Below are positions 10,963-22,816 of a stretch of DNA of 64,000 nt, piece by piece. The notes below the pieces were generated by a model that saw only the letters and a program-made list of their open reading frames with translations, was not told where the DNA came from and did not search any database. The DNA comes from Ilumatobacteraceae bacterium. GTDB lineage: Bacteria > Actinomycetota > Acidimicrobiia > Acidimicrobiales > Ilumatobacteraceae. The position numbers and the translations under genes are program-made. Numbering within the stretch: the first letter of the stretch is position 1; each line of letters starts with the position of its first letter. Where the stretch lies: NCBI GenBank assembly GCA_025358075.1, contig JANYKU010000097.1, positions 1 to 64,000 on the forward strand, given 5' to 3'.

Positions 10963-10986
10963 CAGCGAGGGGATACTGTGCCTCGC

Positions 10987-11178
10987 ATGACTTCGCTTCT
11001 TCGTGAACTCGCAACCAAGAGAGAAGCGAGCGAGGAGATAGCGATTCGCTACGACTCCGCTCGCCAGATCAGCGAGGTCTTCGAGGACGGTCGATGGGTC
11101 CCGAGTTGGGCCTCGCGCGCCCTTCAGCAGACCAAGAAGTGCGACCACGAGACAGGTGAGGATCAGAAGGGGACGTGA
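10987..11178 (+). CDS. small peptide, candidate RiPP (graspetide-like) precursor
   Basis: 63 aa from ATG 10987, C-terminus ...WASRALQQTKKCDHETGEDQKGT; stop overlaps ATP-grasp start (GTGA at 11175-11178). Confidence 0.55.
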   Translation: MTSLLRELATKREASEEIAIRYDSARQISEVFEDGRWVPSWASRALQQTKKCDHETGEDQKGT

Positions 11179-12104
11179 GCGGTACGCGAGTTGTCGTTCT
11201 CACCAATGAACGGGACTTCGCCGCCGACGTCGTCGTCGATCGACTCCAGCGGTTGGGAGCGATCGTCAGCCGCCTCAACATTGAGTCGGCGCGATCTGAA
11301 GCCGTGGCGCCTTGGTCTCCGGCGGCCGGCGAAGTTCCAATGGATGATCAGCCGACGGTCGTCTGGTGGCGTCAGTTCGAGACGGACGACCATCCGAACG
11401 ACCTTGCGGGCGTTGACGAGCTGTTGGTCGAGAGAGCTCAGTGGAGGTCGTGGGTGGCGACCATGTGCGGGTCGAGGGCTGTCTGGATGAACGATCTCTG
11501 GGCGGCGAGGCGAGCCGAGAACAAGGTCGAGCAACTGCGAACCGCAACCGATGTGGGGTTCTGCGTTCCGCGAACGCTCGTCACCAACAATGCTGCTCAG
11601 GCTGCCGAGTTCGGCCGAAGCGTTGGCGGAGCAGTCGTGAAGACTCTCTCGTCTGGATACTTCTCGTTCTCAGATCAGTCGTTCGTATTCACCGAACTCC
11701 TCGACGACGCCGTGCTCGACAGGGTTGAGGCCTGGTCCGCGGCGCCCCTTGTCGTCCAGCAGCATCTCAGGGGTGCGCTCGATGCTCGGGTGGTTTCGTT
11801 GGGCTCTCGCTGTTTCGGAGCTCGTTGTCGGAGCAAGGGCGTCGATTGGAGGAAGACGCCGTTCGATGCAACGCTCTGGTCTACGTGGGAAGTACCGCCG
11901 GACATTGCATCTCGTTGTAAGAACTACCGTGCGCAGCTTGGACTTGAGTTCGCTGCGTTCGACTTCATGGTGACGGACGAGGCGACGTACTTCCTCGAAG
12001 CGAATCAGGCCGGCGAGTGGATGTTTCTCGACAGAGTCCTCGAACTTGGCATCGGACCCGCGATCGCCGACCATCTGCTCGTCATGGGGAGTGCTCGTGA
12101 CTGA
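11175..12104 (+). CDS. ATP-grasp ligase, MvdC/MvdD/TgmB-like
   Basis: 'NDLWAARRAENKVEQLRTATDVGFCVPRTLVTNN...AVVKTLSSGY...LEFAAFDFMVTDEATYFLEANQAGEW' is an ATP-grasp layout; SD-like AGAAGGGG upstream of GTG. Confidence 0.8.
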   Translation: MSGTRVVVLTNERDFAADVVVDRLQRLGAIVSRLNIESARSEAVAPWSPAAGEVPMDDQPTVVWWRQFETDDHPNDLAGVDELLVERAQWRSWVATMCGSRAVWMNDLWAARRAENKVEQLRTATDVGFCVPRTLVTNNAAQAAEFGRSVGGAVVKTLSSGYFSFSDQSFVFTELLDDAVLDRVEAWSAAPLVVQQHLRGALDARVVSLGSRCFGARCRSKGVDWRKTPFDATLWSTWEVPPDIASRCKNYRAQLGLEFAAFDFMVTDEATYFLEANQAGEWMFLDRVLELGIGPAIADHLLVMGSARD

Positions 12105-12960
12105 CCCCACCGATCCAGAAATCGGTGTCGAGGAGGCTGTCCCTACCCTCGCCCCGATCGACCCAACGCCATCAGTTCAGCCGCTTCCGTCACCTCAATC
12201 TGCCTGGTTACTACGAGGCCTTGGGCACGTATGCGGCTTGTGTCGCTCATACGACTTCAGTGCCAGAGTGACTCCTCCCGATGCCTCCGCTCTCCTGGCG
12301 TACTGGACGGTCGAACTCACAGAGCCCGACGTAAGGAAGGCACGCGCAGAGTCAATCGGCCGAGCGTACGACGGAGCGAACAACCGAGGAACCCGCGTTG
12401 AAGCTAAGGCAGTCGGGTATGTGCAGGCGCTTTCGATTGGGTTTGCCATTGTCACTCTCGTCCTCACCCGGGACTCGGTGATCCTTCGCCTGATGTCTTT
12501 GGCTGCGCTTCTCTTCTTCAGTACCGCAACATGGGGAGCACTCGACGTGCTCCGAGTCCGTGCCCGACAACAGCTCTTGGCCAGGGATGCCACCTCCATC
12601 ACGGACGGGCTGGCCGAGACAGCAACTGCGGCAGCTTGTATGGAGATCCAACACATTCGGTCCTCGAACTTCATCTCAGGCGCGGCCCATGACCTGGCTA
12701 TCGGTGGGCTCTTCGCGCTGACCTCGCTTGTACTCATGGTGTTTGGAGTCGGATCGGCGAATGGCAAGTCGAATGACGAAGGGCCCACGACGCCACCCGT
12801 GGTATCGCTGACGACCGAGGTCGCCACGTCCACAACGTCGGACTCCCAAGTCAGCTCGACCACGTCGGTACTCGGCTCGACCGCTACTCCGCCAGTTTCC
12901 GGCGTAGCGGAGACAGCCCCGATCGATTCCACCTCGACGACGGCACAAACGAGCGGATGA
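12097..12960 (+). CDS. membrane protein with Ser/Thr-rich C-terminal tail
   Basis: GTG 12097 overlaps ATP-grasp stop; three hydrophobic segments; tail PPVVSLTTEVATSTTSDSQVSSTTS. Confidence 0.65.
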   Translation: MTDPTDPEIGVEEAVPTLAPIDPTPSVQPLPSPQSAWLLRGLGHVCGLCRSYDFSARVTPPDASALLAYWTVELTEPDVRKARAESIGRAYDGANNRGTRVEAKAVGYVQALSIGFAIVTLVLTRDSVILRLMSLAALLFFSTATWGALDVLRVRARQQLLARDATSITDGLAETATAAACMEIQHIRSSNFISGAAHDLAIGGLFALTSLVLMVFGVGSANGKSNDEGPTTPPVVSLTTEVATSTTSDSQVSSTTSVLGSTATPPVSGVAETAPIDSTSTTAQTSG

Positions 12961-14234: not shown

Positions 14235-14423
14235 CTACCCGCGCTTCTTGGACTTCTTGGTCTTCTTCGTTGATTCGGGACTCGGTGGCGGGGGCGCCTC
14301 GAACTGTTCGGCAAATTCGCGCAGCGACGAAGGCGGAGCCACGTGACCCGACACCAGGTCGTCGATTTGGCGTTGCAGCTCCTGGGCGTGTGCCTCTTGC
14401 TCGCGGCTCAGTTTTTGCTTCAC
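14235..14423 (-). CDS. 62-aa peptide with Pro- and Lys-rich C-terminus
   Basis: MKQKLSREQEAHAQELQRQIDDLVSGH...PPPPSPESTKKTKKSKKRG; 4 nt downstream of the preceding operon gene. Confidence 0.5.
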   Translation of the reverse strand: MKQKLSREQEAHAQELQRQIDDLVSGHVAPPSSLREFAEQFEAPPPPSPESTKKTKKSKKRG

Positions 14424-14427
14424 GGGC

Positions 14428-15285
14428 CTAGTTGATCAGTTCGGCGATCCGCGTCTCGAGTTCTTGCGCCCAGGATGCGGATGACTTGTCGACCGACGAC
14501 TTGCCCTTCTTCGGAGCGCCGGCGCTGAGTTGGACCATGGCGGTCTGCATGAGGCCCTTTGGTGCCGCGTTCCGCATCGGCTTGCCACGGATCATCTCGG
14601 ACGAGCGGTCGGAGAACTCGCGCAGGCTGAACCCGCCCGGAATAGCGCCGCGGTCGACGATCTGGCTCTTCGTTCCTTGAACGAACTGCTGGAACAGGTG
14701 CTGCGACACGGGGTCGTACCAGCTGATGTAGCCGCCATCGAGGACCTTCCGCGGCGCTTTGACGGCACCGGTGTAGCTGTAGCGAACACCCGATGTAGAC
14801 GTCGGGTCGAAGAAGTGTGGTGTGTAGAAGTCGGAGACGAGGACGCCGTCAGCGGTGTAGCCGTACTTCGCCTCTTCACTCGGGTCGCAGACCTCGACGA
14901 GGTACAGGACTCTGCCCTGGCCGGCCTTCAGCGAGTTGCTGGCGACGGTGCGGTTGCCCGATGGGTCGGCGAGCATCTCGAGACACTCGTGGCTCGCGGT
15001 GAGCGCCCAGTTGGTGTCGAATTGAACGAGGGCGAACGGTTGACCGTTCTTCTTGTTCGAGTGGAAGCCGGCCGCGCCCTGCTGCTTGATGTCGTCACGC
15101 ACGATGACGGGCCAGTACCCGAGTGGCACGTGCGCCAACTTGCTGAACGCACTGACCGAAGCGTGGATGTTCCAGATCGGACCGAAGTCTCTGGTCACCT
15201 GCTTCTGCAGTGCGGCGGCAACCACACTCACCTCGTCCAGTCCAACCTTCGTGGTCTGGGAAACCAGAGCGACTTGCGCAATCAT
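14428..15285 (-). CDS. hypothetical protein, putative metallopeptidase-like (TASHECLEMLADP)
   Basis: 285 aa; 'ALTASHECLEMLADPSGN' HExxx motif; 4-nt overlap with upstream ATP-grasp gene. Confidence 0.6.
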   Translation of the reverse strand: MIAQVALVSQTTKVGLDEVSVVAAALQKQVTRDFGPIWNIHASVSAFSKLAHVPLGYWPVIVRDDIKQQGAAGFHSNKKNGQPFALVQFDTNWALTASHECLEMLADPSGNRTVASNSLKAGQGRVLYLVEVCDPSEEAKYGYTADGVLVSDFYTPHFFDPTSTSGVRYSYTGAVKAPRKVLDGGYISWYDPVSQHLFQQFVQGTKSQIVDRGAIPGGFSLREFSDRSSEMIRGKPMRNAAPKGLMQTAMVQLSAGAPKKGKSSVDKSSASWAQELETRIAELIN

Positions 15286-16286
15286 GATGCACTCCCCTTG
15301 GTTGAGTAGTCAGATGTTAAGCATGTTGAACTCGCGTGGCAATGGCCTCGGTCCGCGTTGTGCAGCTCCTCGGCGATTGCCAGCGCGATGGGTTGGCCGG
15401 TGTTGCGCTCGTAGTACGAGAACGCCGGCGAAGGATTGACCTCGAAGCAGTACCACTGGTCGTCCGACGTGCGTCGAAGGTCGACGCCGCCGACGGTCAG
15501 CCCCATTCCGCGGACCATCGATACGCAACGATCGGCCACGTCGCCCGGCAGCAGGTACGGCTCCAACTCGACATCGGCACCTTGGCGCGAGGCGTAGCGA
15601 TAGTCGTCGGCGTCGCTGATCGCCTCCGTGGCGAAGGTCGACGAGCCGATCACGTGGACTCGAACATCGACGCCCGGCACGTACTGCTGAAACTGGGTCG
15701 GACCGCTGGCGACGTCGTCGAGCCGATCTACGTGAGTCGCGCCAAGCTGCGAGACGATGCTGCGGACACCGCTGACCGACTTGTAGATCAGCCGCTCGTG
15801 TTGCGCCCAGAACGCTCGAACCTCATCGGCGTCCGTCGTGATCAAGGTGTCGGGCACAGCGAAACCGTGCGTGGCGATCATTGCCAGTTGGAACGGTTTC
15901 GATCCGTTCGCCGCCATCGCAGCCGGTCGGTTCACGACGAGTGCATCGCCGAGGTCGGCCCAGGTGAGTAGCGCCAAGTCGGATCGCATCGCCCGTTCGT
16001 AGCTCGGTGTCCCAGGCGAGGACGACGATGCCCGGCACACCTCCTGGGTCGAGTACGGACGCACGTAGACCGCCCGAACTTCGTCGAGCGAGATTGCCGG
16101 TTGTGTCGAGCAGTCGTAGGTGACGGTGCCGCGAAGTCGACCGCGGTTCGGTGCGCACGACAGTTGGACGTCGCACGCGGCATTGAGCCGTTGGTCATGG
16201 ACTTGTACGTCGGCCCCGAGGGTTGACAACGCGTTTCGAACATCGTCGAACGGGGCATCGCCGGCGACTCCCCACAGCAAGATCAT
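15282..16286 (-). CDS. ATP-grasp ligase (MvdD/RimK-like)
   Basis: 'NRPAAMAANGSKPFQLAMIATHGFAVPDTLITTDADEVRAF...LIYKSVSGVRS...VGGVDLRRTSDDQWYCFEVNPSPAFSYYE'. Confidence 0.8.
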   Translation of the reverse strand: MILLWGVAGDAPFDDVRNALSTLGADVQVHDQRLNAACDVQLSCAPNRGRLRGTVTYDCSTQPAISLDEVRAVYVRPYSTQEVCRASSSSPGTPSYERAMRSDLALLTWADLGDALVVNRPAAMAANGSKPFQLAMIATHGFAVPDTLITTDADEVRAFWAQHERLIYKSVSGVRSIVSQLGATHVDRLDDVASGPTQFQQYVPGVDVRVHVIGSSTFATEAISDADDYRYASRQGADVELEPYLLPGDVADRCVSMVRGMGLTVGGVDLRRTSDDQWYCFEVNPSPAFSYYERNTGQPIALAIAEELHNADRGHCHASSTCLTSDYSTKGSAS

Positions 16287-16945
16287 CGTGTCACGCGCTC
16301 GGAGCTACGGAGATGGTCGAGCACGAGCTCGCGCCACTGCGGGTCGTCGAGCGCCGGCCGGGCCGTCGCCGCGCACATCTTGCCGTCGATGAAGCGCGCC
16401 GCGAGCATGGTGACCCCGGCCTCGGCCGCGAGACGTAGCGCGGCCTCGGACTCTTCGCGCCGCGGCGTTCCGATCGTGGTCGTACCGCAGACGAGAACAT
16501 CGGTTGTATCCGCATCGTCGGTCGCTGCGGTGTGCCACGGAACGTCTGCCCGCGATGCGGCGAGTTGCCAGTGCACGTCGCTCCAAGGCGGCCCGCACAG
16601 GCAAGTTGTGGTCGGACGGTTGACGACCGGGCAGGTCAGCGCGGAGAGCCACGCCACGAGAAAGGCATTGATCTCGGCAGTGAGGTATGCACGGTCGGCA
16701 TCGTCGATGGCCACGAGCTCGTCGCTGATCACCGCCGGGCGACGCGTGACGACGGCGCGAATGTCGCGCACGTCGACCACCGACCCTGACACCACCGCAC
16801 GTCCGCCGTCGGGATCGCCGACTCGAAACGACCACCCCGAACGGCAAAGATCATCCGCGCTGAGCAGTTCCGCGCCTGCTGCAGACCACGCTGTGGCGAG
16901 TGCCGACGCCGCAGAATCGAAGGCACTCGCCACGATCGCGATCAC
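16283..16945 (-). CDS. 221-aa partner protein of the ATP-grasp operon
   Basis: GTG 16945 overlaps the kelch stop by 4 nt; stop overlaps the ATP-grasp start by 4 nt; MvdD-type N-terminal-like text 'VNRPTTTCLCGPPWSDVHWQLAA'. Confidence 0.65.
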   Translation of the reverse strand: MIAIVASAFDSAASALATAWSAAGAELLSADDLCRSGWSFRVGDPDGGRAVVSGSVVDVRDIRAVVTRRPAVISDELVAIDDADRAYLTAEINAFLVAWLSALTCPVVNRPTTTCLCGPPWSDVHWQLAASRADVPWHTAATDDADTTDVLVCGTTTIGTPRREESEAALRLAAEAGVTMLAARFIDGKMCAATARPALDDPQWRELVLDHLRSSERVTR

Positions 16946-18768
16946 CGTCCGGCTCCACGCTTTCGCGGTGCGCTCTTGGCGGGTGCAGCCTTCTTCGCCG
17001 AACCTCGCGAGCTCGAGCCCTTGGGCGCGGCCTTGGTGACCTTCGATGCTTTGGCTGCGGTTCCGGCTCGGCTGCGCGGGGCCGGTGCGGGCTCGCCGAC
17101 GGAATCGGGCAGTGTGCCGACTTCGGGACGCTCCGACGTGCGGACGAAGGATCGAAGCGATCGCACCTCCGACTCGATGGCATCGCTGCGTTCGATCAAG
17201 ATGCGCGTGACCTCTTCCCAACCTTGATCCCCGAAGTGCTCGATGCCGTCGATCTCGCTGATCTTGCGAAGATCCTCGAACACCAGCTTCAGGTTCTCGT
17301 GCTCGAGCTTGAAGTTCTCCTTGATCTCCTTGATCTCCCACTTCAGTTCCTTCCACCGCTTGTGCGTGACGGCGACGCTCACGGATTCGGACGGGATCCC
17401 GTTGGCGATGACGACGATGCTCGATCCTCCGAGGGGCGCCGCCGATGGAACCGTGAAGCGGGTGGTGTGGATCGCTGCTCCGGTCTGGATGCCCATCGTC
17501 GAGTGATCGTGCGTACGGCAGTACGTCACCGTGCCCGTCGCAATGTGCGTGATGCGCACGATCGGGTAGTTGGTGGCCATCGCCCCTTCGTCGCCGTAGA
17601 TGACGGCTTGCGAAAGGCCGTTGAGCTGCCGGCCGTGCAGCGTGTAGGTGGAACCTGGTTGCAAGGCCGAGCCCACCGACGTGATGCTTGGCCGCCAGGT
17701 CGGGTCGTAGGTGCCGTCGGGTGAGTAGATGGCGACAACGCTCGAACCATCCGTGTGCAGAACCTGGCCTGTCGGCAGCAGCATCAGCCTCGATGTGAAT
17801 GGGCTGCCGGTGCCGTTCACCGGGCTTGGGACTTGCGTAAGCGTGCCGGCTGCGGGATCGAACTCGTAGAAGTACAGCGGGTTCCCCCACGTGCCGGCGA
17901 CTGGGTCGTAGGGAGCCACGACGGCCAAGACGCGACCGTTTGGCAGCAGCGCGGCCGGAGCGTCCTTGGCCCCGGTCGTGAGACCGGCGACGACCACCGG
18001 GAAGTCTGGACCGGCTGCCCAGGTGCCCGGCTGATTGGCGATTGACGGAGGCGTGTAGAGAGCCGTGTGGTTCGTTGCTCCGATGGCGAACACGCGGCCA
18101 TCGGGAAGCGCCATCGCTGCCCCGACTTCCTCCGATCCGGCGTCGACCAGCGTCACTGGAGTAGCTCCGGCCGTGACCCAGAGGTCGGCGGCGGGGACGT
18201 ACTTCTCGGTACGCGGCCGGTTGTCGCACTCGATCGCCAGCACCGTCTGATCGCCGAGCAGCACCCAGGTCTCCTCGGTGCTTCGCGAATCTTCCTTGTT
18301 CGCAGCCGCCGTCCATGCATTGGTGACGGGGTCGTAGATCGCCGACCGGTTCGACCCGATGTCGCCGAGCAGCACGCGGCCGTCAGGCAGCAGTACCGAC
18401 GGCGCGTCGCCGATCTCCGTCCACCCTGTCGGCGTGGGAATGGTTGTCCAACTGTCGGCCAGGGGATCGTAGATCTCCGCCGCCAAGAGCTCGACCTGCG
18501 CTCCATTGTTGTACTCGCCACCGGCGACGAAGACGCGGCCATCGGCGAGCACGGAGCAGGCGAAGTACAGCGGCGAGTTGGGGCCGTCGGCGAGTTGTCG
18601 CCAAGTTCCGTTGCGATAGTCGCCAGTCGAGTCGGGGCTCAGCGCGTACCAGTGGTTCGTCCCGTTGTTCGACTCGTCGTGACAGAGCACCGAGCCGTCC
18701 GTGAGCAGGAGCATCGTGCCCGCCCCGAACGTCGGTTGATTGATCAGTGTTTGCCAGGTTCCAGCCAT
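16942..18768 (-). CDS. kelch / galactose-oxidase-like beta-propeller protein with DUF1929-like domain and Lys/Ala-rich tail
   Basis: repeats 'LLTDGSVLCHD', 'VLADGRVFVAGGEYNNG', 'LLPDGRVLLGDIG', 'ALPDGRVFAIGA', 'LLPNGRVLAVVA'; good SD before ATG 18768. Confidence 0.85.
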   Translation of the reverse strand: MAGTWQTLINQPTFGAGTMLLLTDGSVLCHDESNNGTNHWYALSPDSTGDYRNGTWRQLADGPNSPLYFACSVLADGRVFVAGGEYNNGAQVELLAAEIYDPLADSWTTIPTPTGWTEIGDAPSVLLPDGRVLLGDIGSNRSAIYDPVTNAWTAAANKEDSRSTEETWVLLGDQTVLAIECDNRPRTEKYVPAADLWVTAGATPVTLVDAGSEEVGAAMALPDGRVFAIGATNHTALYTPPSIANQPGTWAAGPDFPVVVAGLTTGAKDAPAALLPNGRVLAVVAPYDPVAGTWGNPLYFYEFDPAAGTLTQVPSPVNGTGSPFTSRLMLLPTGQVLHTDGSSVVAIYSPDGTYDPTWRPSITSVGSALQPGSTYTLHGRQLNGLSQAVIYGDEGAMATNYPIVRITHIATGTVTYCRTHDHSTMGIQTGAAIHTTRFTVPSAAPLGGSSIVVIANGIPSESVSVAVTHKRWKELKWEIKEIKENFKLEHENLKLVFEDLRKISEIDGIEHFGDQGWEEVTRILIERSDAIESEVRSLRSFVRTSERPEVGTLPDSVGEPAPAPRSRAGTAAKASKVTKAAPKGSSSRGSAKKAAPAKSAPRKRGAGR

Positions 18769-20486: not shown

Positions 20487-22816
20487 ATGAAGATCTCGAG
20501 GCGTCGGCTGCTTGGTATGGGAAGCATTGTCGGGGTGGGGGCGGTACTACCGTCCATCATTCGGAATGATGCCAACGCCGCGGTGACCACACCCGGAAAC
20601 GGGCAGATGTCCGGTATGACCGATATCACTCGTATGAAGAGTGCGGCAGTTCCGACGCTGACTCCCTACGTCTACGTGTCGAGTCCGCCACTGTCGAAGT
20701 TCAGCCAGGCCTTGCGCGGTGTGTATCCGCTGGATCCGAACGGCATCCCGGTTGCCGTGCCGGACGGGACCGTGAAGTATCTCAACGGTCGGCTGATGGC
20801 TGACCACTATTCGATCGACATCGCCGAATACGAAGATCTGCTTCACCCGGATCTGCCATCCAAGACCCGACTGTGGGGGTTCCATTCGCACAAGAACCTC
20901 GGTGACACCGCAACGAAGAAAGTTGCCCAGCGGCACCTCGGTGGGATCATCGTCGCCCAGCGGAACGTGCCCGTGCAGATCACCTTCAAGAACAAGCTCC
21001 CGCGCCGTCACGTACTTCCGGTCGACCCAACGATCATGGGAGCAGAGGGCGCGCCGAACCGAACCAGCGTCCACCTCCACGGTGGAGCGGTTCCGTGGAT
21101 CAGTGACGGCGGTCCGTTTGCGTGGTTCCGCCCGAACGACGACCCCACCGACACGACTCCTTTGTATGGGCCGAGCGCGGCGAGCGGGGCACTGAACATC
21201 TTCAAGGTGCTCAATCCACAGCTCGCCGCCGGCGAGGCCGAGTACTACTACCCGATGAATCAGTCTGCGCGCTTCTGTTGGTATCACGACCACTCCGTCG
21301 GAATCACGAGGCTCAATGCCTACGCCGGCATCGCCTCGGGCGTGATCATCCGCGACGATTTCGAGCGGAGCCTCGTGAAGAAGTTCGGTCTGCCCGACTT
21401 CATCGAGAACGGCGGTCGCGAGCTGCCAATCGTGATCCAGGACAAGATCTTCCAGGATGTGGCCCAGGATCCTGCGTATCCCGGCAGCAGGGCCACGGGC
21501 AGCCTGTGGTATCCGTATCGCTACACCGATCGCTGGGATTCGGCCCCCGGTAGCGACGCCGCGACCCTGCCGATCTCGTGCATCCCGGAGATGTTCGGCG
21601 ACACCATGTTGGTCAATGGTGTCGTGCACCCGAAGGTTGCGATCGAGCCGCGTCGCTATCGGCTGCGGCTGCTCAACGCGACGCAGGCACGGTTCCTGAA
21701 CTTCCAGCTCTACGAGGCGAAGGGCCCCGTTGGAGCCCAGTTACCGGCGTTCTCCAAGCCCGGCCCTGACTTCTTGGTGCTGGGCACCGAAGGCGGCTTC
21801 CTGGCTCATGCCGTCAAGGTCGGTTCGGGTCGTCGTCTCAAGGTCACGACTGACGCGACGACGGATGACCGGTCGGTCGACCCTGCCGACCCGGGTGGCA
21901 GTCTGTTGACCGGACCCGCCGAGCGGTGGGACTTGGTCGTCGATTTCTCCGCATTCGCCGGGAAGAGCCTGATCCTCTACAACGACACGCCCGCACCGTT
22001 CCCCGGTGGAGATCACCTTGACGACGGACCGGTGGCGATCGATGGTGCCGGGCGCACGATCCTGCTCAACCAGATGATCATGCGCTTTGACGTCGCCGCC
22101 ACGATCACGGGTCCGGCCGACCCACCGTTCGGGATCACCGACGGGTTCCGGCTCGCCGCCAATCAGAGCTCGGGCATCGACCCGGCTCTGGCGTCGGCGT
22201 GGGGACGGATCACGGCTTCGCACTTGCTGCACCTGCCGGCGTCCGCGTCCGCAAGCTCACCCTCAATGAGCTGTTCGACGAGCACGGCCGCCTCATCCAG
22301 ATGGTCGGCACGAACCAGCTCGGCAACCCACTGCCCGGCTTCACTCTCGACCCGGCGGCCCCGGGCGCCGATCTCCACAAGACCACGGCCTTGGCCTACA
22401 TGGACCCAGTGACCGAGTCGCCGCCTGTGGGAGATGTCGAGGTATGGGAGATCGCCAACCTCACTGCCGACGTGCATCCCATGCACTTCCACCTCGTCAA
22501 CGTGCAGGTGCTTGCCCGCCTACAGTTCACCGGCTACGAGTTCAACGCCGCCGGACGCGGCAACCCGACCGGGCTGGGCCGCGAGCGTGGTCCCGACGCG
22601 ACCGAGCTCGGATGGAAGGAAACGGTACGCATGAACCCCGGCGAGGTGACACGAATCATCATGCAGTTCAACATGCCGCCGGTCCCCTTCGCCGTGCCCA
22701 AGAGCCCTCGCGTCGATGACAACGAGTTCGTCTGGCATTGCCACATCCTCGAGCACGAGGAGCACGACATGATGCGGCCGCTCGTCGTCCGCGGCGCCCA
22801 TCCACGAATGACGTGA
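20487..22816 (+). pseudogene. multicopper oxidase (CotA/bilirubin-oxidase-like), split by a frameshift near 22200
   Basis: frame 1: TSVHLHGG, FCWYHDHSVG; second frame: DVHPMHFHLVNVQVL, FVWHCHILEHEEHDMMRPL; switch at G4 run 22201-22204. Confidence 0.85.

Follow-up and report, generated by a model that had tools for sequence, protein, structure and literature searches.

We analysed a 64,000 nucleotide (nt) stretch of DNA from an Ilumatobacteraceae bacterium (contig JANYKU010000097.1, positions 1 to 64,000; hereafter the window), which belongs to a 4.4 Mb assembly of 193 contigs, and followed up five minus-strand genes that encode a kelch beta-propeller protein, a protein that we call p220, an ATP-grasp ligase, a protein with an HExxE motif and a small protein of 62 amino acids (aa). 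The original prediction for this DNA, made from the sequence letters, had placed five genes at these coordinates and all of the open reading frames (ORFs) were present, except that the protein given as 221 aa has 220 aa. The 4-nt stop/start overlaps that it gave for three of the junctions were matched exactly, as was the gap of 4 nt ahead of the 62-aa ORF. A strong Shine-Dalgarno sequence (GAGGAGG) lies ahead of the kelch start and the following genes run on without gaps, which fits a single operon. A promoter and terminator scan gave results at chance level. Pfam and NCBIfam assigned kelch repeats to the first gene and a RimK-superfamily ATP-grasp, closest to TIGR04187, to the third, and neither database had a match for p220, the HExxE protein or the 62-aa protein.

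The ligase matched TIGR04187 (NCBIfam) at E=1.3e-42. The curated cut-offs were not reached for TIGR04187 (146 bits vs 350), MvdC (92 vs 425) or MvdD (71 vs 475). When a profile of the ligase family was used, PsnB (7drm) was matched at E=7.5e-43 over residues 2-305, MdnC (5ig9) at 2e-32 and RimK at 2.6e-12. The PsnB/MdnC match covered the whole length of the ligase including the N-terminal part, and PsnB was the closest solved structure. The ATP/Mg catalytic residues K169, R209, D269, E282 and N284 were invariant across 7 relatives and the catalytic CFEVNPSP motif was retained. Judged by these profiles the ligase is of the graspetide-synthetase type and not of the RimK type, and the earlier inference of a peptide- or protein-tailoring operon with such an ATP-grasp was right.

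Relatives of the ligase were collected in several searches. A search of 399 same-phylum genomes returned two close relatives, G505 and G336; 50 HExxE-bearing genomes yielded G694 (a Rhizobacter metagenome-assembled genome) and G685 (Verrucomicrobiota); and family- and order-level searches around G694 yielded G746 and G1007. Genes were located by tblastn and codon-position guanine-cytosine content. Plasmid searches using p220, the kelch protein and the G336 and G694 tails gave no useful relatives. In a tree of 25 ligase sequences the enzymes of the window, G1007, G505, G336, G694 and G746 formed a supported clade (99/98). This p220-linked clade mixes the phylum of the window with genomes of the order Burkholderiales, and therefore the unit of proposed substrate, p220 and ligase appears, from the tree, to have been transferred between lineages. 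In a clade adjoining the p220 group, locus L134 (5388-6614) carries an 88-aa precursor with TTLAxxEE-type repeats ahead of its ATP-grasp, a plesiocin-like layout.

A p220 homologue precedes the ATP-grasp gene in G336, G694, G746, G1007 and G685, and a copy shortened to 85 aa was found in G505. The pair spans Actinomycetota to Burkholderiales and Verrucomicrobiota, and finding it again in other phyla with its 4-nt overlaps is beyond chance. An hhalign comparison matched p220 to the full length of the ATP-grasp family (97.8%, E=8.8e-13); p220 lacks the middle part that binds ATP and has not retained the E/N metal ligands. An AlphaFold model of p220 with a predicted local distance difference test score (pLDDT) of 78 had the graspetide synthetases PruB, MdnC and PsnB as its top PDB matches. 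The template modelling score of p220 against these synthetases was about 0.4, a low value that would be expected if a domain was lost. The alignment and the model together indicate that p220 is a degenerate ATP-grasp, or pseudo-graspetide synthetase.

The gene directly upstream of p220 bore a C-terminal tail in 5 of the 6 loci with an intact pair, the window included. This gene differs from locus to locus, encoding the kelch protein in the window, a propeller of the pyrroloquinoline quinone (PQQ) type in G1007 (L197), an M6 metalloprotease in G746 (L182), a trypsin/Nal1-like protease in G336 (L130) and a 208-aa K/D/E-rich protein without any other domain in G694 (L162). The 4-nt overlaps of p220 and ATP-grasp accompany the tailed gene in all four of these relatives. 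At the C-terminal end of all five upstream proteins a K[DE]-rich segment is followed by a short conserved region resembling ALExxLxxLxxFIxxxLRPDL, which we call the follower (Table 1). The window and G1007 tails, although attached to unrelated propellers, aligned at 38% over 128 aa (E=1.4e-13). A hydrophobicity scan found no signal-like N-terminus in the kelch protein or in any other tailed protein. Several of the tailed proteins come from families whose members are usually secreted.

Follower similarity was assessed against 2000 shuffles. The real score was matched by 0 shuffles for window-G1007, 3 for window-G336 and 2 for window-G694, and most pairs fell at 0-9; homology was not supported for G1007-G746 (210/2000). 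When the enzyme parts were compared most pairs scored like shuffles, with the exception of window-G336 (3/200). With leave-one-out hidden Markov models (HMMs) each left-out tail was the first non-training match among 20,862 ORFs, at E-values of 0.022 (window), 1.8e-4 (G1007), 1.2e-6 (G336) and 2.2e-7 (G694). In a search of seven genomes strong tail matches occurred once per genome and only beside p220 in the window genome, G1007, G336 and G694; no tail was found in G685 or G505, and the G746 tail scored weakly because of its insertion. At the level of sequence comparison the results establish homology, the conservation of the tail, its genome-unique position beside p220 and the degeneracy of p220. 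A K[DE]-density ranking of 5,216 ORFs was topped mostly by ATP-grasp neighbours.

Table 1. Genes and tail features of the operon, with the conserved tail regions of the related loci
Feature	Position	Strand	Sequence	Basis and proposed role
Kelch beta-propeller protein, 608 aa	16942..18768	-		Pfam Kelch_1/Kelch_6; proposed substrate carrier
K/E-rich helical segment, residues 469-508	17245..17364	-	HKRWKELKWEIKEIKENFKLEHENLKLVFEDLRKISEIDG	aligns with G1007 tail; proposed crosslinked core
Conserved follower region, residues 519-558	17095..17214	-	EVTRILIERSDAIESEVRSLRSFVRTSERPEVGTLPDSVG	shuffles and leave-one-out HMM; proposed recognition motif
Lys/Ala/Ser-rich terminal stretch, residues 570-608	16945..17061	-		not conserved against G1007/G336/G694 tails
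p220, 220 aa, GTG start	16283..16945	-		hhalign to ATP-grasp family and AlphaFold model; proposed partner/recognition subunit
ATP-grasp ligase, graspetide-synthetase type, 334 aa	15282..16286	-		TIGR04187 1.3e-42; PsnB match; tree clade 99/98
HExxE protein, 285 aa, zincin-like candidate, second module	14428..15285	-		129 related GTDB loci; AlphaFold2 model
62-aa small protein, GTG start	14235..14423	-		downstream partner of HExxE gene (QELQxQIDxL ... SLREF)
Window tail, conserved region			RILIERSDAIESEVRSLRSFVRTSERPEVGTLP	
G1007 tail, conserved region			RILAERVDAMSEELAKGRAFIRPEQRPAVGEAP	
G336 tail, conserved region			LEQRLAALESQLGQLTGFIGAELRPDLSGSAF	
G694 tail, conserved region			AQRLAALEATLAQLLHFIPSDLRPDLSAGAL	
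G746 tail, conserved region			LEARLQMLEATVGA...(about 18-aa insertion)...PFIDASLRPDLDGGPV	

One of the high-ranking ORFs belongs to a further locus, an operon of Parafrankia sp. EUN1f (L169, 3923-7331). It encodes a KD-repeat protein that stands alone (FKDFKDGKDFKDWKDSKD...), and is followed in the operon by genes for a p220-like protein (E=5e-7), an ATP-grasp and a 264-aa protein. The 264-aa protein had no Pfam match and looks like a 2-oxoglutarate-type oxygenase. This operon is reminiscent of corallotide, whose Lys is cyclised and then hydroxylated.

We propose that the first three genes form a unit of substrate, partner and ligase, and we put the probability that the kelch tail is the substrate of the ATP-grasp/p220 pair at about two in three. 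The precursor would be built into the kelch protein as its C-terminal tail, made of a K/E-rich helical core and then the follower motif. The follower (the FI/FV...RP[DE] region) would be bound by p220, by the active ATP-grasp or by the two in complex. The ATP-grasp would phosphorylate Asp/Glu of the tail and link them, through isopeptide bonds to Lys or ester bonds to Ser/Thr, with residues close by. The product would be a rigid, multiply crosslinked tail that remains on its enzyme. Between lineages the enzyme domain would be swapped, with tail, p220 and ATP-grasp as the conserved machine. We infer this crosslinking reaction, its targets and its purpose. Speculatively, our first guess is that a crosslinked tail might serve in anchoring or (non-Sec) export of the signal-less proteins, and our second that it might inhibit the protease-type members in cis. 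Precedents come from published work, in which a graspetide leader transferred to the C-terminus kept its function (PMC13003496) and both Lys-isopeptide repeats and synthetases that depend on a partner were described (PMC13097080).

The propeller tail had been named before as a possible substrate, and this part of the original prediction was supported. The terminal Lys-rich stretch that it singled out is not conserved in the relatives, and the relevant part is the K/E-rich helix with the 'FVxxxERPEV' region common to G1007, G336 and G694. The suggestion that the kelch protein is a copper-radical oxidase was not upheld, as only a partial kelch-repeat match to GlxA was obtained (residues 55-134, 32.6 bits vs a cut-off of 800) and the Pfam scan of the protein found no galactose-oxidase catalytic or C-terminal domain.

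Several observations weigh against the tail being the substrate. The K/E segment of the window is short and weakly repetitive, with 3 strict K[DEN] pairs in 60 aa, and 102 ORFs score at or above it in the K[DE]-density ranking. The window-G746 followers were indistinct from shuffles (993/2000), the G746 tail having an insertion, and the HMM score of the left-out window tail was modest (E=0.022). Five tail-bearing loci of the p220 type are known in all. The shortened p220 of G505 has no tail nearby, and in G685 the gene upstream of p220 and ATP-grasp is a kinase without a tail. The tail could also be a coiled coil with another role. The support comes from comparisons of sequences and models, and crosslinking is a prediction.

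The five genes had been proposed as one conserved set, and they were found to make up two modules: kelch/p220/ATP-grasp and HExxE/62-aa. ATP-grasp homologues occurred without kelch or 285-aa neighbours, the outcome that the original prediction had named as its refutation; the reason is that one enzyme domain can replace another, with tail, p220 and ATP-grasp kept. HExxE homologues were found on nine plasmids and in 129 GTDB loci, ranging from Streptomyces and Bradyrhizobium to Acidobacteriota, Planctomycetota, Verrucomicrobiota and Bacteroidota. Directly downstream of the HExxE gene a small ORF (50-107 aa) was recognised by a strict pattern in at least 31 loci, a recurrence beyond chance, and by eye in several more. 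It has a short amphipathic segment, RADxLxxxIDxL (QELQRQIDDL in the window), and an S[LP]REF/SLREAVxRRMREL motif (SLREF in the window), and a match to the 62-aa protein was obtained at L034 (E=0.003). The C-terminus of the HExxE protein repeats both motifs in reversed order (SLRxFIDxxT ... ARAxxWRxQIExL). ATP-grasp genes were not seen around the named HExxE loci, except at L014, a distant homologue on a Streptomyces plasmid that lies about 0.9 kb from tgmA/tgmB. As the HExxE/small-ORF pair is common without an ATP-grasp, genes 4 and 5 are a separate, independent module that was captured into the operon behind the ATP-grasp genes. On the same grounds HExxE was rejected as a marker of the ATP-grasp system. 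We also dropped SLR[ES]F as a recognition motif common to the kelch, HExxE and 62-aa proteins because it is conserved without ATP-grasp in HExxE and its small partner, and is a local follower variant in the kelch protein.

The HExxE family had no Pfam or NCBIfam model and its large alignment (A1) was too divergent for scanning. H99, E100, E103 and D107 were invariant, with the second His of HExxH replaced by Glu. An AlphaFold2 model was confident (pLDDT 88.7) and its best Foldseek match, to metzincins (MMP/ADAMTS), was weak (E=0.03); the protein is a zincin-like candidate. The domain is also found in fusions. In Rhizobium (L011) its fusion partner is an annotated phospholipase D-like domain, and in L074 and loci of Paraburkholderia/Burkholderia it is joined to a long C-terminal part. 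In most of the fused loci (L011, L083, L086, L087, L089-L091 and L074) an SLRSFVD-type motif lies at the junction.

Other explanations for the tail were weighed against this evidence. The upstream enzymes may be maturation or resistance enzymes with the true precursor encoded elsewhere, as was already proposed in print for branches 7 and 8 (Makarova et al. 2022) and for the proteases of group 32 (Carter et al. 2026). Peptidases are indeed frequent among the upstream genes. However, kelch and PQQ propellers are not peptidases, the G694 protein keeps the same tail without an enzyme domain, and the tail is unique in each genome where it was found strongly and sits beside the ligase. A precursor encoded elsewhere is therefore improbable in our judgement. 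We regard as equally improbable that the tail is an unmodified oligomerisation coiled coil or export tag and that the ATP-grasp pair acts on something else. The helix-like tail and the lack of a signal peptide-like N-terminus on any tailed protein would suit such a role, but it leaves unexplained that the tail travels with p220 and ATP-grasp while the enzyme domain changes.

Matches to RimK Pfam and TIGR00768, together with an NPSPAF motif that differs from the NP.GQW of many other MvdC-like ligases compared, could mean that the ligase is RimK-like and, rather than crosslinking side chains, extends the tailed protein with amino acids (e.g. Glu) at the C-terminus or on Lys. This is slightly more doubtful still, as the whole-length profile including the N-terminal part is much nearer to PsnB/MdnC/CdnC and the TTLAxxEE-type precursor of L134 belongs to the adjoining clade. 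The 62-aa peptide, which the original prediction offered as a substrate, is adjacent in the same operon, small and Lys-rich at its end. Its homologues, however, trail HExxE genes in many loci without any ATP-grasp nearby, ATP-grasp and p220 occur elsewhere without it, and it has no repeated donor/acceptor pattern. It is an unlikely ATP-grasp substrate, and of the explanations considered we give the least credence to a graspetide precursor in this peptide or in the HExxE tail.

Enzyme genes directly before an MvdC-like ligase were also found without p220. In the M43 proteases L096, L132 and L183 the repeats are of the KFRDDPVGT or TLKFREDQPP type, those of L096 being T/D-rich, and a motif like PFVLSTPHHSMAW lies at the C-terminus; the astacins L184 and L175 carry TIKEVRKDPISD repeats and a TPFVL/TPYVL motif. 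This layout is probably like that of 'branch 7', with the repetitive tails as likely precursors. A broader proposal is that whole folded enzymes have their C-terminal tails stapled in cis by an ATP-grasp and a pseudo-ATP-grasp through Lys-Asp/Glu isopeptides, that core and follower form a portable cassette, and that the M43/astacin tails (TIKEVRKDPISD or KFRDDPVGT repeats, PFVL-type motif) work alike; we see the chances for and against it as evenly balanced. If true, graspetide chemistry would be a protein-tailoring system besides a route to peptide natural products, one by which nature staples or stiffens the tails of full-size enzymes, and protein engineers could use the portable tail as a ready-made tag. 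With a degenerate ATP-grasp that is obligatory, graspetide synthetases would also have a partner of a new kind. Two graspetide-type ligase branches have been published without a findable precursor, and if the tail of the neighbouring enzyme is the precursor this gap becomes directly testable.

The window contains a second MvdC-like ATP-grasp (11175-12104) with its own small ORF, which was missed in the original prediction. Encoded on the opposite strand at a distance of 3 kb, it is only distantly similar (30%) to the operon ligase. The unit (10978-12960, plus strand) consists of a 66-aa ORF ending ...TKKCDHETGEDQKGT, the ATP-grasp, which it overlaps by 4 nt, and a 304-aa membrane protein. The layout is repeated in Rhizobium ZX09 (L099, ...ETGEDQKGE) and G1153 (L201, ...EKGEDQKDR) and the three ligases cluster in the tree (98/92). 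This is a second graspetide-type unit. A frameshift near 22.2 kb apparently divides a multicopper oxidase with a twin-arginine translocation signal (20487-22816, plus strand), whose last copper motif (HCHILEHEEHDMM) sits in another frame (22199-22816); the frameshift could be an assembly error.

Among known systems the window is most readily compared with 'branch 8' of Makarova et al. 2022 (PMC8939145), whose loci combine an ATP-grasp with a second, truncated and inactive one and with peptidases that come from unrelated families. Judged from the published text rather than from accession lists, this branch shares with the window a graspetide-type ATP-grasp, a truncated inactive ATP-grasp, a variable enzyme gene and no recognised precursor. 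The window differs in having a kelch propeller in place of the peptidase, which is present in most, not all, branch 8 loci; the G336 and G746 relatives have peptidases. No precursor could be predicted by those authors for branches 7 or 8 and it was suggested to be encoded elsewhere, whereas a shared C-terminal tail on the enzymes was seen here. Carter et al. 2026 (PMC13097080) described a group 32 with diverse neighbouring proteases, for which maturation or resistance was suggested. In the open literature, with subscription journals and supplements outside the search, a precursor in the enzyme's own tail was not found. From the same study as group 32, rosaritide resembles the window in that the ligase needs a partner protein, which is PpiC-like there and a degenerate ATP-grasp here, and corallotide resembles the proposed tail in having repeated Lys-isopeptide motifs in a large precursor. 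GlxA/galactose oxidase share kelch repeats with the first gene, as a partial repeat match and no catalytic-domain match, and RimK/LysX share the ATP-grasp domain, with a much weaker profile match and without a p220 partner or tail. The graspetide synthetases MdnC (microviridin), PsnB (plesiocin) and PruB share family and fold with the ligase and act on Lys/Ser/Thr and Asp/Glu-rich targets. Unlike in these graspetide systems, the operon has no leader-cleavage gene, the proposed substrate is the tail of a large folded protein and the recognition motif is C-terminal. We regard the locus as a new graspetide-type variant.

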